Assembly (NCBI RefSeq): GCF_005937985.2
Contig: NZ_CP042172.1
Span: 2,356,001-2,420,000, forward strand
Direction of reading: 5' to 3'
DNA length: 64,000 nt
From: Arthrobacter sp. KBS0702
Lineage (GTDB): Bacteria > Actinomycetota > Actinomycetes > Actinomycetales > Micrococcaceae
Shown piece by piece: positions 28,710 to 63,653 of the stretch. The position numbers and the translations under genes were made by a program. The notes under the pieces were generated by a model, which ran no database searches, was not told where the DNA came from, and was given only the letters and a program-made list of their open reading frames with translations. The stretch's first letter is position 1. Each line of letters starts with the position of its first letter.

Positions 28710-28782
28710 GCCCTCGTAGCTCAGGGGATAGAGCGTCTGCCTCCGGAGCAGAAGGTCGTAGGTTCGAATCCTATCGAGGGCA
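28710..28782 (+). tRNA. tRNA-Arg (anticodon CCG)
   Basis: The 73-base cloverleaf is complete. The acceptor stem is GCCCTCG pairing with CGAGGGC, discriminator A at 28782. The anticodon stem is TCTGC/GCAGA with loop CTCCGGA, so the anticodon CCG is at 28743-28745 and reads CGG arginine codons. The T arm has GGTTCGAATCC. The 3' CCA is not encoded (ACCG follows). It lies beside argS, whose enzyme charges it. Confidence 0.97.
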
Positions 28783-46276: not shown

Positions 46277-47233
46277 CTAGCGCTGGCCGAGGGCCTTGGC
46301 CAGCGCGTCCACGTTGTCGGACATCCACTCAAGGTAGCCCTTGCCCTCCGGCAGCGTCTCGCTGAAGTCCACCACGGAAACGCCGGCGGCGACGGCCGCG
46401 TCCTTGAGCGCGAGCGTCTGGGGGCCTTCCGTCTGCGGGTTGTAGGCGAGCAGCCGGATGCCACCGGATTTCACGACGTCGACGGCGGACCGCAGCACGG
46501 CGGGCGGTACGTCCGAGCCGGATTCGATTGCGGCGCTGTATTCGGGTGGAGTCCGGTTCTCAAGTCCCGCAGCCTCCAGCAGGTAGAGCGGGACCGGCTC
46601 GGTGACGGCGACCCCGCCGTGGGCCGCGGTGGCCTTGAGTCCGGAGAGCCGGGTGTCCAATCCCGCGAGTTTCTGCTTCAGGGCTGCGGCGTTGTTGCGG
46701 AAGTCCCCGGCCGAGGACGGCTCGAGTGCGCCCAGCTTGTCCGCCAGCGCGTCGGCCAGCCGGCCCATCGCGGCGGTGCTGTACCAGACGTGTTCGTTGA
46801 ATCCCGCGGGGGCGTGGCTGTGGCCGTCGGCGTCGGGCGAGGCCGATCCGGCGGCGGAGGCCAGCCCGGAGGTGTCCACGGCGTTGAGCAGGTTCTGGTC
46901 CTGCAGCCCGGTGTCCTGGGCCAGCTTGTGCAGGAAGTCGTCGTAGCCGCCGCCGTTCTCCACGACCAGCTCGGCCTTGGAGACGGCCAGCTTGTCCTGC
47001 GTGGTGGCCTCGTACGAGTGCGGGTCCTGGCTGGTCCGGTTGATGATCGAGGTCACCCGGACCTTGCCGCCGCCGACGCTGCGGACGATGTCGCCGTACA
47101 CACTCGTGGAGGCAACCACCTCCACCACACCATCGCCAGCGCCGGGCCGGTCGCCGCCCGACGTCGGGCCGCAGGCGGTCAGCAGGAGGCTGCTGAGGCC
47201 GGCAAGGACAACAGCGGCGGCGGAACGGCGCAC
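46277..47233 (-). CDS. znuA: Zinc/manganese ABC transporter substrate-binding lipoprotein
   Basis: A 318-residue lipoprotein: signal peptide with lipobox LLTAC (lipidated C21), then a cluster 9 metal-binding fold. Likely ligands are H72 (QDPHSYE), H148 (NEHVWYS) and an acidic residue near the end; the loop DGHSH (136-140) just before the second ligand is a short version of the His-rich loop of zinc binders. The GTG start has GAGG seven bases upstream. It opens znuACB and lies just downstream of a Zur-like operator. Confidence 0.93.
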   Translation of the reverse strand: MRRSAAAVVLAGLSSLLLTACGPTSGGDRPGAGDGVVEVVASTSVYGDIVRSVGGGKVRVTSIINRTSQDPHSYEATTQDKLAVSKAELVVENGGGYDDFLHKLAQDTGLQDQNLLNAVDTSGLASAAGSASPDADGHSHAPAGFNEHVWYSTAAMGRLADALADKLGALEPSSAGDFRNNAAALKQKLAGLDTRLSGLKATAAHGGVAVTEPVPLYLLEAAGLENRTPPEYSAAIESGSDVPPAVLRSAVDVVKSGGIRLLAYNPQTEGPQTLALKDAAVAAGVSVVDFSETLPEGKGYLEWMSDNVDALAKALGQR

Positions 47234-47337: not shown

Positions 47338-48399
47338 CTATTCCTGCCCGAGCCTGCGGTAGCCGGTGGCCTGTGTGGCGTCGCGGATCTCTCCGACCAG
47401 CTGCTCGATCACGTCCTCGAGGAACAGCACGCCCTGGGTGTGCCCGTCCGGGCCGATCACCCGGGCGAGGTGCGAGCCGGTGCGCTGCATGACCGACATC
47501 GCCTTTTCGATCTCATCGTCCATGGCCAGGTTGGCCAGCGACCGGATGCGGCTCTCGGCGATCGGGTGCTGGTAGCCGGCTTCCGGGATCGAGAGCACGT
47601 CCTTGATGTGGAGGTAGCCGGAGAGCATGCCGTCCTCGTCGAGCATCGGGAACCGGGAGAACCCGGTCCGGCTCACCGACTTCTCGAACTCCTCCGGCGT
47701 TGTCGCCGCCTTGAGCATCACGAGCTTCTCCAGCGGCACCATGACCTGGGAAGCCGTGTGTTCGGAGAACTCCAGCGCACCGGTGATCAGGCCGGCGTCG
47801 TCGTCCACCAGGCCGTGGCGGGTGGATTCCTGCACGATCGACTGGACTTCCTCGAGCGTGAAGGAGGACGTCACCTCGTCCTTCGGTTCGATCCGCATCA
47901 GTTTCAGGATGTGGTTCGCGGACCAGTTCAAGGCCACAATGACCGGCCTGACCGCGCGGGCAATGAACATCAGCGGCGGCGCGAGCAGCAGGGCTGCCTT
48001 GTCCGCGACCGAGACCGAGATGTTTTTCGGCACCATCTCGCCGAAGGTCACGTGCAGGAACGTGACCGCCAGCAGGGCGATGGCGAACGCCACGACGTCG
48101 GCCATCTCGGTCGGCACGCCGACCGCCTCCAGCGGGGCCGCCATCAGGTGGTGGATGGCGGGCTCGGCCACCTGCAGGATCAGCAGGGAGCAGACCGTGA
48201 TGCCCAGCTGGGCGCAGGCCAGCATGAGTGAGACGTTTTCCATCGCCCGCAGCGTCGTCTGGGCCCGCTTGGATCCGGACTCGGCGAGGGGCTCAATCTG
48301 GCTGCGGCGGGCGGACATAACGGCGAATTCGGCCGCCACGAAGAAGGCATTGCCCAGCAGCAGCACTGCCAGCCACAGGATTCCCAGCCAGTCGTTCAC
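47338..48399 (-). CDS. CNNM/hemolysin-family membrane protein with CBS pair
   Basis: A 353-residue protein: DUF21/CNNM membrane domain (residues about 1-190, four helices, FFVAAEFAVMSARRSQIE at the start), then two CBS domains (about 205-335). The C-terminal CorC domain is missing, unlike in its upstream partner. Bacterial relatives take part in magnesium or cobalt efflux and salt tolerance. The ATG overlaps the end of the longer paralogue, so they may form a heteromer. Confidence 0.88.
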   Translation of the reverse strand: MNDWLGILWLAVLLLGNAFFVAAEFAVMSARRSQIEPLAESGSKRAQTTLRAMENVSLMLACAQLGITVCSLLILQVAEPAIHHLMAAPLEAVGVPTEMADVVAFAIALLAVTFLHVTFGEMVPKNISVSVADKAALLLAPPLMFIARAVRPVIVALNWSANHILKLMRIEPKDEVTSSFTLEEVQSIVQESTRHGLVDDDAGLITGALEFSEHTASQVMVPLEKLVMLKAATTPEEFEKSVSRTGFSRFPMLDEDGMLSGYLHIKDVLSIPEAGYQHPIAESRIRSLANLAMDDEIEKAMSVMQRTGSHLARVIGPDGHTQGVLFLEDVIEQLVGEIRDATQATGYRRLGQE

Positions 48400-49757
48400 G
48401 CGGCACCGGCCTTTCCGGCAGCATCAATGCGCCCGTTGCGTCCGGTGGGCCGCTCGGGCTCCGGCGGAGCCGGTTTGAAGCAGATGCGGTCGATCCGGCG
48501 TCCGTCCATCCGGGTCACGCTGAGCTTTCCGCCGACGACGTCGACCGTGTCGCCCACGGCCGCGATCCGGCCGAGCTGGCTCATCACGTACCCGCCGACG
48601 GTTTCGTAGGCTGCCTCGTCCGGCACGGTCAGGCCCGGAATCTGTTCGGAGAGTTCGTCCGGGCGCAGCAGGCCCGGGAAGTACCAGTCCCCCGAGGCGC
48701 TCTGCAGCAGCCCGGGGCGGACCTTGTCGTGTTCGTCGGCGACTTCCCCGACGATTTCCTCCACGAGGTCCTCCAGCGTGGCGATCCCGGCCGTTCCGCC
48801 GTATTCGTCGAGGACCACCGCAAGCTGCAGGTTGCCCTCGCGCAGTTCGGCGAGCAGGCCGTCCAGGTGGATAGTCTCGGGCACGCGGAGCACCTCGGTC
48901 ATGATCGCGCCGGCTTCCAGGTTGGCCCGCCGGTCCACCGGAACGGCGATGGCCTTCTTGATGTGGACCACGCCGCGGATGTCGTCCGATGACTCGCCGA
49001 TCACGGGGAAACGTGAGTAGCCGGTGCGTTTGGCGGCCTCGACAATGTCCGAGACCGGTTGGTGGCTGTCGATGGTTTCCACCCGGATCCGGGGGGTCAT
49101 CACATCCGCAGCCGTCCGCCCGGAAAACTTCAGAGTGCGCGAGATGAAGTTGGCAGTCCGTTCGTCCAGGGTTCCCATCGCGGCCGAGCGGCGCACCAGC
49201 GAGGCAAGCTCCGCCGGCGTGCGGGCCCCGGAAATCTCCTCCTTGGCTTCAAGGCCAAGGACGTTCAGGACCTTGTTGGAGAAGCCGTTGAGCACCACGA
49301 TGGCCGGCTTGAAGATTGCGGTGAACACCAGCTGCGGCCGGGCCAGGGCCTTCCCGACCGGGAATGACAGGGCGATGGCCATGTTCTTCGGGACGAGTTC
49401 GCCGATCAGCATGGACAGCAGCGTGGCCAACGCCATTGCCAGCACCAGCGAGACTGACGTGGCGCCGGCTGCGGGCAGGCCAAGTACGGTCAGCGGGCCC
49501 TCCAGCAGCTTGCCCACCGACGGTTCCATCACGTAGCCGGTGAGCAGCGTGGTCAGGGTGATCCCGAGCTGGCAACTGGAGAGCTGGGTGGACAGGGATT
49601 TGAGGCATTTGAGCAGCGGGGCCGCGGCGGTGTCGCCGTTGTCCACGGCGCGCTGCACGGTGGCCTGGTCGAGCGCGACCAGGGAGAATTCGACGGCAAC
49701 GAAGAAACCGGTGCCGAGGATGAGGAGCAGTCCTGCTCCGAGCAGTAGCCACTCCAC
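48396..49757 (-). CDS. CNNM/CorC-family membrane protein (DUF21, CBS pair, CorC domain)
   Basis: A 453-residue protein with the full layout: DUF21 membrane domain (1-190, FFVAVEFSLVALDQATVQ at the start), CBS pair (about 205-335) and CorC_HlyC domain (about 350-430, ETVGGYVMSQLGRI). Known relatives such as CorC and MpfA are involved in magnesium homeostasis. It starts at a GTG. Its message probably has a long 5' region that contains the structured RNA described at 49784-49980. Confidence 0.9.
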   Translation of the reverse strand: MEWLLLGAGLLLILGTGFFVAVEFSLVALDQATVQRAVDNGDTAAAPLLKCLKSLSTQLSSCQLGITLTTLLTGYVMEPSVGKLLEGPLTVLGLPAAGATSVSLVLAMALATLLSMLIGELVPKNMAIALSFPVGKALARPQLVFTAIFKPAIVVLNGFSNKVLNVLGLEAKEEISGARTPAELASLVRRSAAMGTLDERTANFISRTLKFSGRTAADVMTPRIRVETIDSHQPVSDIVEAAKRTGYSRFPVIGESSDDIRGVVHIKKAIAVPVDRRANLEAGAIMTEVLRVPETIHLDGLLAELREGNLQLAVVLDEYGGTAGIATLEDLVEEIVGEVADEHDKVRPGLLQSASGDWYFPGLLRPDELSEQIPGLTVPDEAAYETVGGYVMSQLGRIAAVGDTVDVVGGKLSVTRMDGRRIDRICFKPAPPEPERPTGRNGRIDAAGKAGAA

Positions 49758-49783
49758 TTAGCGGCCCGCTTCGGAGTGCCGGA

Positions 49784-49980
49784 GTGCCGGCCGGGGGGAA
49801 CGTCCCGGCGGAGGATGGTCAGCCGCGGCCGACCCTCTTTCCTGGAAGGCACTCTGTCCGGGGAAAGACCGCTGCCGGGCAGCGGAGGAGTGATGGGCGC
49901 GTGAACGGGGTTTGCCGGCTCTGCGGGTGGACTGGGCGGGAACGGATTCCGTTCCGCGCTGACAGCCCCCAGGCCGGCAC
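49784..49980 (-). ncRNA. Candidate structured RNA (leader of the CNNM operon or free RNA), class unknown
   Basis: The ends pair over about 200 bases: 49784-49792 with 49972-49980 (9 bp) and, after one mismatch, 49794-49798 with 49966-49970 (5 bp). Inside are hairpins at 49939-49955 (7 bp plus three more past a bulge), 49869-49885 (7 bp, CCGCTGC/GCAGCGG), a stem of 49836-49842 with 49862-49868 (TCTTTCC/GGAAAGA), and 49817-49834, whose mid-stem G-U pair exists only in the minus-strand RNA. TAGACT at 50007-50012 is a candidate -10. I could not match it to a riboswitch or 6S pattern that I know. Confidence 0.5.
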
Positions 49981-50006
49981 CTAGATTTACTGTCCATAAG
50001 AATTTC

Positions 50007-50012
50007 AGTCTA
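50007..50012 (-). promoter_or_regulatory. Candidate -10 for the structured RNA and CNNM operon (TAGACT)
   Basis: Initiation near 50000 would place the closing stem about 20 bases from the 5' end and give the CNNM gene a leader of some 240 bases. It lies just after the guaB1 stop. Confidence 0.4.
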
Positions 50013-50023
50013 CAGGTTTCAGG

Positions 50024-51613
<1,590 letters not shown>

Positions 51614-63536: not shown

Positions 63537-63653
63537 GGTCACGAGTGCCAGCGCGAAACCCCGGTTTGCTGGCCGGCAACCCTCCATTCGCGGTGGGGTG
63601 CCCCGGGTGACGACCTGGCCGGTCCGGAACGGACCCGGCAAGCGCGGATCCCC
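63537..63653 (+). promoter_or_regulatory. SAM-IV riboswitch
   Basis: The stretch carries the conserved SAM-IV pattern: GGTCACGAGTGCCAGCG, AAACCCCGG, GCTGGCCGGCAACCCTCC, CGGTGGGGTGCCCCGGGTGA and the closing GACC, followed by a GGTCC/GGACC hairpin and GGCAAGCGCGGATCCCC. These elements bind S-adenosylmethionine in actinobacterial sulfur genes. It lies 31 bases before an aminotransferase start. TACGCT (63524-63529) is a possible -10. Confidence 0.92.

Follow-up and report, generated by a model that had tools for sequence, protein, structure and literature searches.

Results

Locus and features

The window (the whole stretch of 64,000 nucleotides from Arthrobacter sp. KBS0702 that was analysed) carries on its minus strand, in reading direction, guaB1, a spacer of 266 bp, a CNNM/CBS/CorC_HlyC gene and a second CNNM-CBS gene. 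Downstream of both CNNM genes lies an ORF (46277-47233, minus strand) that we take, from its appearance, to encode a zinc/manganese ABC-transporter solute-binding lipoprotein. An earlier note on this DNA had described most of the spacer, positions 49784 to 49980, as an unassigned structured RNA of about 197 nt closed by a long-range stem of 14 bp. Judged by its sequence, the stretch is mostly a small protein-coding leader that abuts the start of the CNNM/CorC-type gene in Arthrobacter relatives. The features are the following.

50024..51496, minus strand: guaB1 (GMP reductase, NCBIfam), upstream gene on the same strand, boundary only
50007..50012, minus strand: -10 box TAGACT (TAnnnT), 9 nt upstream of the leader ATG
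49758..49997, minus strand: leader ORF, 79 aa, ATG to TAA, apparently leaderless
49956..49997, minus strand: island 1, codons 1-14 (MDSKSRCRPGGCQR), mostly frozen at silent sites, with the rare codons AGT, TCT, AGG and CCT
49973..49978, minus strand: conserved RNA stem, 5' arm GCCGGC
49914..49919, minus strand: conserved RNA stem, 3' arm GCCGGC
49890..49922, minus strand: island 2, RAGKPRSRAHH
49806..49820, minus strand: island 3, DHPPP (polyproline), apparently selected at the amino acid level (codon-position differences)
49761..49805, minus strand: last linker, up to the stop; drifting sequence, frame kept (codon-position differences)
49758-49760, minus strand: leader stop TAA, directly adjoining the CNNM start codon GTG
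48396..49757, minus strand: CNNM/CorC-type gene (CNNM, CBS and CorC_HlyC domains, Pfam), downstream gene
47338-48399, minus strand: second CNNM-CBS gene, after the CNNM/CBS/CorC_HlyC gene in reading direction

Distribution and sampling of loci

Of 198 genomes in the genus, 197 match the spacer at the DNA level. A repeat element was rejected, as the spacer matches only once in its own genome. Among the matches listed, the alignment nearly always starts at query base 6-9, which is the -10 region; the exceptions are the own genome and G019, where the match lies at a contig end. Named equivalents come from Arthrobacter and Pseudarthrobacter species and from one Micrococcaceae record. Two spacer matches each were seen in G001, G002, G003, G055, G119 and other genus genomes. 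In one complete genome (L016/G052) the element occurs twice, at C1:23164-23446 and 4161295-4161577, near both contig ends, which is probably an assembly overlap.

From the 197 matching genomes we took a genus set of 90 loci, the 30 best and 60 picked ones, in which the weakest matches are under-represented. Eighty-nine of them could be anchored (L081 could not), and L062 was left out of the promoter count because its upstream sequence is too short. With a peptide profile, 50 of 197 family genomes gave a match at E<=0.01 (12 belong to the own genus) and 147 gave none; some of the weak matches are probably due to chance. A CNNM match was found in all 40 loci read after this search (12 of the own genus). 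The other-genus set consists of 28 loci read out of the 38 other-genus genomes with a profile match (G203, G222, G242, G263, G271, G284, G285, G324, G330 and G358 were left out), and they belong to genera g5, g8, g19, g24, g28, g31 and g32. L130 was excluded from this set, as it is of the own genus and has a damaged leader (L130/L147, one genome), and L111, L112 and L125 were left out of the codon counts because their frames run into CNNM.

In searches beyond the family, profile A2 found 14 matching genomes among 347 of the order, of which 13 are members of the own family, and 3 among 246 of the class, including the own genome. The remaining three A2 loci (L142, L143 and L144) lack any match to CNNM or guaB1 at E<=1e-3, and we regard them as chance. 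Among 345 class genomes, the pattern ATGRANAGYNNNTCTAGRNGCCGGY occurs in 3, which all belong to the own family, and its reversed control had 0 hits among the matches listed. A looser TCY pattern was discarded; its reversed control matches as often or more among the matches listed, and many of its hits are chance. A CNNM match is present in 108 of 119 order genomes, and of the 30 CNNM loci that were read (9 of the own family, 21 of other families) the leader was not seen in any of the 21. Within the family, no such leader was seen at L152 and L153, and L149 and L151 (genus g31) carry a diverged MDSPSR leader that ends 2 and 5 nt before the CNNM start. No convincing member outside the family came from the order and class searches, which covered samples of larger groups of genomes.

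An open frame that ends at the CNNM start

The earlier note had suggested a leader of the CNNM gene as one idea, and this part holds, in the form of an open frame whose stop adjoins the CNNM start. In 88 of the 89 anchored genus loci, the leader stop lies at -1, 0 or +1 relative to the CNNM start, with the exact abutting register (offset 0) in 75. It is within 1 nt of that start in 25 of the 28 other-genus loci, all of which are anchored; in the other genera the junction is mostly a 1-nt overlap (16/25). A collection of 80 named loci, found by peptide pattern and overlapping the genus set, gave a similar picture, with 78 anchored, 77 whose stop is no more than 1 nt away from the start of CNNM and 77 containing PPP. 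Sense frame 0 is free of stops in 89 of 89 loci, and the other sense frames are stop-free in 52 and 0 of 89, where shuffled sequences gave a mean of 26 and a maximum of 31. Among genus loci, the distance that separates the conserved start from that of CNNM varies mostly in multiples of 3 nt. Apart from one leader of 46 aa, the lengths range from 65 to 102 aa over genus and other-genus loci.

The short leader belongs to L053, in which the DHPPP island is deleted and the frame still ends at the CNNM start, indicating that the frame is kept even without this motif. Exceptions to the junction are L035 of the genus, where the leader is frameshifted and has no stop before CNNM, and L111 and L112 (genus g19) and L125 (g31), where the leader frame continues into CNNM. 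The leader ORF has no family match in Pfam and NCBIfam. In our judgement, the ORF is almost certainly real and arranged for coupling with CNNM.

Promoter and start sites

The earlier note had placed a -10 sequence, TAGACT, just upstream and had called transcription on the minus strand, towards CNNM. Both were correct: the box lies at 50007-50012 and reads TAGACT in 85 of 88 genus loci, and the leader frame is on the minus strand as well. A TAnnnT that ends 9 nt before the leader ATG is present in 87/88 genus loci and 25/28 other-genus loci; at other offsets in the other-genus loci, the mean fraction with this pattern is 0.003 and the maximum 0.071. No strongly conserved -35 element was found upstream of the leader. 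Motifs resembling a Shine-Dalgarno sequence (GGAG, GAGG or AGGA) precede the leader ATG in 0 of 88 genus and 2 of 28 other-genus loci and CNNM in 11 of 89 and 9 of 28, counting only these three motifs. The spacing of the -10 box suggests that transcription starts at or near the leader AUG. Together with the scarcity of Shine-Dalgarno-like motifs, this spacing agrees with an mRNA that is leaderless or nearly so and with reinitiation at CNNM.

Folding of the spacer

The inverted repeat on which the closing stem was based is present: on the plus strand, GTGCCGGCC followed by GGGGG from 49784 stands opposite CCCCC and GGCCGGCAC, ending at 49980. As a conserved element the stem fails, since its pairing in relatives is no better than in shuffles. 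In 89 genus relatives, the longest run in which the 5' arm pairs with the final 75 nt ahead of CNNM has a mean of 8.12, equal to the shuffled mean of 8.12. The stem is lost in close relatives, the outcome that the earlier note had itself named as speaking against it. The minimum-energy fold of the minus strand also lacks the 14-bp stem, and the same 5' arm pairs there with an internal GCCGGCA. Moreover, the 3' half of the closing stem falls in the last linker, the most variable part of the leader.

What favours a free structured RNA of 197 nt is the folding energy of the 271-nt region, which has a z-score of -2.44 on the minus strand (3 of 200 dinucleotide shuffles fold equally well) and of -3.08 on the plus strand (1 of 200). 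Both strands beat most shuffles, the plus strand somewhat more, so folding gives the minus strand no preference. A further stem at 49817-49834, the hairpin before DHPPP, had been offered as a sign of the transcribed strand. It is present in this sequence and is unsupported in relatives: in 87 genus loci its largest excess is 73 of 87 paired, against a shuffled mean of 67.0 and maximum of 75, and it is not maintained in 25 other-genus loci, where one pair forms in 0/25. With neither helix standing out from shuffles, and with the stretch itself an open frame abutting the CNNM start, a free or purely structural RNA closed by the 14-bp stem was rejected, and we regard it as extremely unlikely. By its sequence, the conserved thing in the guaB1-CNNM spacer is an apparently leaderless ORF and not a closed RNA of 197 nt.

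The earlier note had recognised no known RNA class, in agreement with our Rfam search, in which nothing in the region reaches a cut-off. Up to E=10 there were two matches (E 5.8 and 6.4), with 18.3 bits where the cut-off is 40 and 9.5 bits where it is 218. A 6S RNA was rejected: RF00013 has 0 matches in the own genome, a model that may be insensitive here, as it matched 5 of 14 control genomes, all of them non-actinobacterial by name. Elsewhere in the window, the Rfam search gave a SAM-IV riboswitch (114.9 bits, 63537-63650, plus strand) and a tRNA gene (70.7 bits, 28710-28782, plus strand).

Conserved islands and selection at codon level

Selection on the spacer, which the earlier note had also assumed, is borne out by strong conservation across the genus. 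The leader peptide contains three conserved islands, MDSKSRCRPGGC, RAGKPRSRAHH and ADHPPPG (22 and 23 aligned peptides). We computed pairwise differences per codon position. For codons 1-60 of CNNM, positions 1/2/3 gave 0.108/0.058/0.451, and island 3 (DHPPP), with 0.030/0.066/0.290, likewise varies mostly at third positions. Island 1 gave 0.052/0.038/0.054 and island 2 gave 0.136/0.095/0.210. These patterns suggest that island 3 is selected for its amino acids and island 1 for its nucleotides. In island 1, the genus keeps AGT in 88/88, TCT in 85/88, AGG in 88/88 and CCT in 88/88 loci, and these codons account for 2, 3, 8 and 6%, respectively, of the codons for their amino acid in the first 140 codons of CNNM. 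The last linker, with 0.643/0.587/0.621, differs equally at all positions, which suggests that it is unconstrained except for staying open and in frame. That the frame is kept while this linker drifts points to translational coupling.

The first two prolines of PPP are invariant (88/88 genus and 25/25 other-genus rows), and the third is present in 87/87 genus rows and in 20 of 25 other-genus rows with letters. The PPP codons themselves (CCUCCGCCG, 49806-49814) are rather conserved at silent sites in the genus, with CCT in 85/88, CCG in 82/88 and CCG in 70/87. They include CCUCC, which we take to be the anti-Shine-Dalgarno core.

The islands could also mean that the leader is a functional small protein, for example a basic disordered partner, that is co-expressed with CNNM and has no role in cis, coupling serving to balance both products. 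Conservation of all three islands as amino acids fits this, as does the third-position variation of DHPPP and of the C-terminal AG[R/C]. Such a protein would not need the silent-site freeze of island 1, its last linker drifts like unconstrained sequence, and neither Pfam nor NCBIfam recognises it. AlphaFold2 predicted no fold for the peptide (mean pLDDT 61.0, pTM 0.12), from a shallow alignment of 18 sequences and with the proviso that disordered proteins can function. Given that the linker drifts, that silent sites are frozen and that no fold was predicted, the reading as a stand-alone small protein is the less likely one, and we consider it unlikely.

An RNA stem inside the ORF

From 44 of the 113 leader sequences (alignment A3), RNAalifold predicted a single stem, GCCGG[C/U] with [G/A]CCGGC, over codons 7-28 here. 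Its 6 bp are paired in 44/44 sequences (264/264 cells); five pairs are invariant, and one is changed on both sides in 6 of the 44. In the other-genus set the two-sided change occurs in 8 of 25 loci, all of genus g8. Both the covariation score and the number of stem cells changed on both sides are higher than in any of 500 shuffles, which ignore relatedness. Counted by pairs, such changes are no more numerous than in shuffles (302 of 500 have at least as many), and the run length of internal pairing does not exceed that of shuffles either (7.36 versus 7.63). Covariation thus supports the stem modestly, and the two-sided change, affecting one pair in one genus, is perhaps a single event.

This stem bears on the possibility that the 5' part (codons 1-36) is a riboswitch or another ligand-binding RNA and that the open frame is secondary. 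The silent-site freeze, the near-invariant blocks UCUAGGnGCCGG...CCGGC...CCCG and a 6-bp stem with one two-sided change would agree with such an RNA. It is nevertheless very unlikely in our view, as RNAalifold predicts one short stem only, the frame is kept all the way to CNNM, and the two Rfam matches obtained up to E=10 are far below their cut-offs.

Discussion

The promoter box, the frame, the stop/start junction, the three islands and the one stem can be read directly from the DNA. What was an unassigned structured RNA becomes an unnamed family of CNNM coding leaders that contain one short RNA stem. It also shows that a GC-rich spacer which is conserved and forms good hairpins may turn out to encode a leader. 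We infer the transcription start, translation of the leader, its coupling to CNNM and its regulation in cis. Coupled translation is favoured by the frame, the junction and the drift of the last linker. In this linker, which is free to drift while its frame stays open, nature provides a case of evolutionary evidence for translational coupling.

The best explanation, which we hold to be probable, is that the leader ORF acts in cis and controls CNNM through coupled translation, perhaps by polyproline stalling. An upstream ORF, mostly of 65-102 codons, would be translated from an mRNA whose 5' end coincides with the AUG of this ORF or lies within a few bases of it. The stop of the ORF abuts or overlaps the CNNM start codon, and ribosomes would pass on by termination and reinitiation. 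As CNNM starts mostly without a canonical Shine-Dalgarno core, ribosomes finishing the leader would supply much of its initiation. Control of CNNM in cis is a likely role for the leader, which probably helps to set how much of the transporter is made.

Less certain is how the leader would be regulated. The stem over codons 7-28 and DHPPP could be two checkpoints at which leader translation is slowed or aborted. From general knowledge of PPP motifs (PMC4176338), DHPPP may be expected to stall ribosomes; that it is the regulated step is a tentative proposal, about which we are somewhat more doubtful than confident. In this scheme, CNNM output would track the performance of ribosomes and EF-P, possibly via the supply of Mg2+ or polyamines. 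The earlier note had mentioned a metal-sensing leader, which is possible. Mg2+ as the signal, tied to the element only through the domain names of the downstream gene, is a doubtful candidate. A leader of two layers, in which a frozen 5' RNA gates leaderless initiation by ligand or metal, the DHPPP peptide senses EF-P or the ribosome and both feed one coupled CNNM start, strikes us as rather unlikely. Through the leader, the control of bacterial CNNM/CorC-type proteins becomes accessible to testing.

Among openly licensed papers, we recognised no description of this CNNM leader. One close group of known systems is the enterobacterial leaders MgtL and YoaL, whose type of initiation differs from that of the leader described here. 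MgtL is a polyproline leader linked to Mg2+, and the effect of mgtL depends on its proline codons (PMC12421838, PMC6460261). In Salmonella, YoaL overlaps sequence upstream of the CorC-domain gene mgpA, and MgpA is translated less when the start codon of YoaL is replaced by a stop (PMC12421838). The regulation of the Salmonella CorC-domain genes mgpA and corC has been called unclear (PMC12421838). Likened by description, these systems and ours share a leader ORF ahead of a Mg2+-related gene (PMC12421838, PMC6460261), and consecutive proline codons under selection, as in the MgtL type, are found in our leader. Unlike those leaders, it comes from a different phylum and has a different length, and the membrane domain of MgpA is TerC and not CNNM (PMC12421838).

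A second comparison is with the arrest peptides ApcA and ApdA, which precede yidC or secDF and have an N-terminal export or membrane signal and a conserved C-terminal arrest region with R-A-P (PMC7897499). Like them, the leader is a small conserved actinobacterial ORF that includes a block with proline and precedes a gene for a membrane protein (PMC7897499). Unlike them, its peptide looks hydrophilic, has RAGKP and DHPPP and precedes CNNM (PMC7897499). By inspection, it has neither the N-terminal topogenic signal nor the C-terminal RAP/RAGP-like motif of the ApcA/SecM type.

A third comparison is with mycobacteria, where leaderless small ORFs of 5-50 aa are coupled through RTGA (Shell et al. 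2015, PMC4633059). As there, the ORF starts at or near the transcript 5' end, here judged from the -10 box, has no Shine-Dalgarno sequence, stops at the start of the next gene, is likely coupled in translation and is unannotated (PMC4633059). A -10 box near the AUG without a Shine-Dalgarno motif and a stop at the next start are both found in our leader. It falls outside the survey's class of 5-50 aa with RTGA, as it is mostly 65-102 aa long and its junction in the genus consists mostly of abutting codons (PMC4633059). The coupled mycobacterial example shown in that survey has a peptide sequence that is not conserved, and other, conserved upstream ORFs are reported as well (PMC4633059). Unlike this coupled example, the leader ahead of CNNM conserves three islands and has a frozen block at its 5' end as well as a polyproline motif (PMC4633059).
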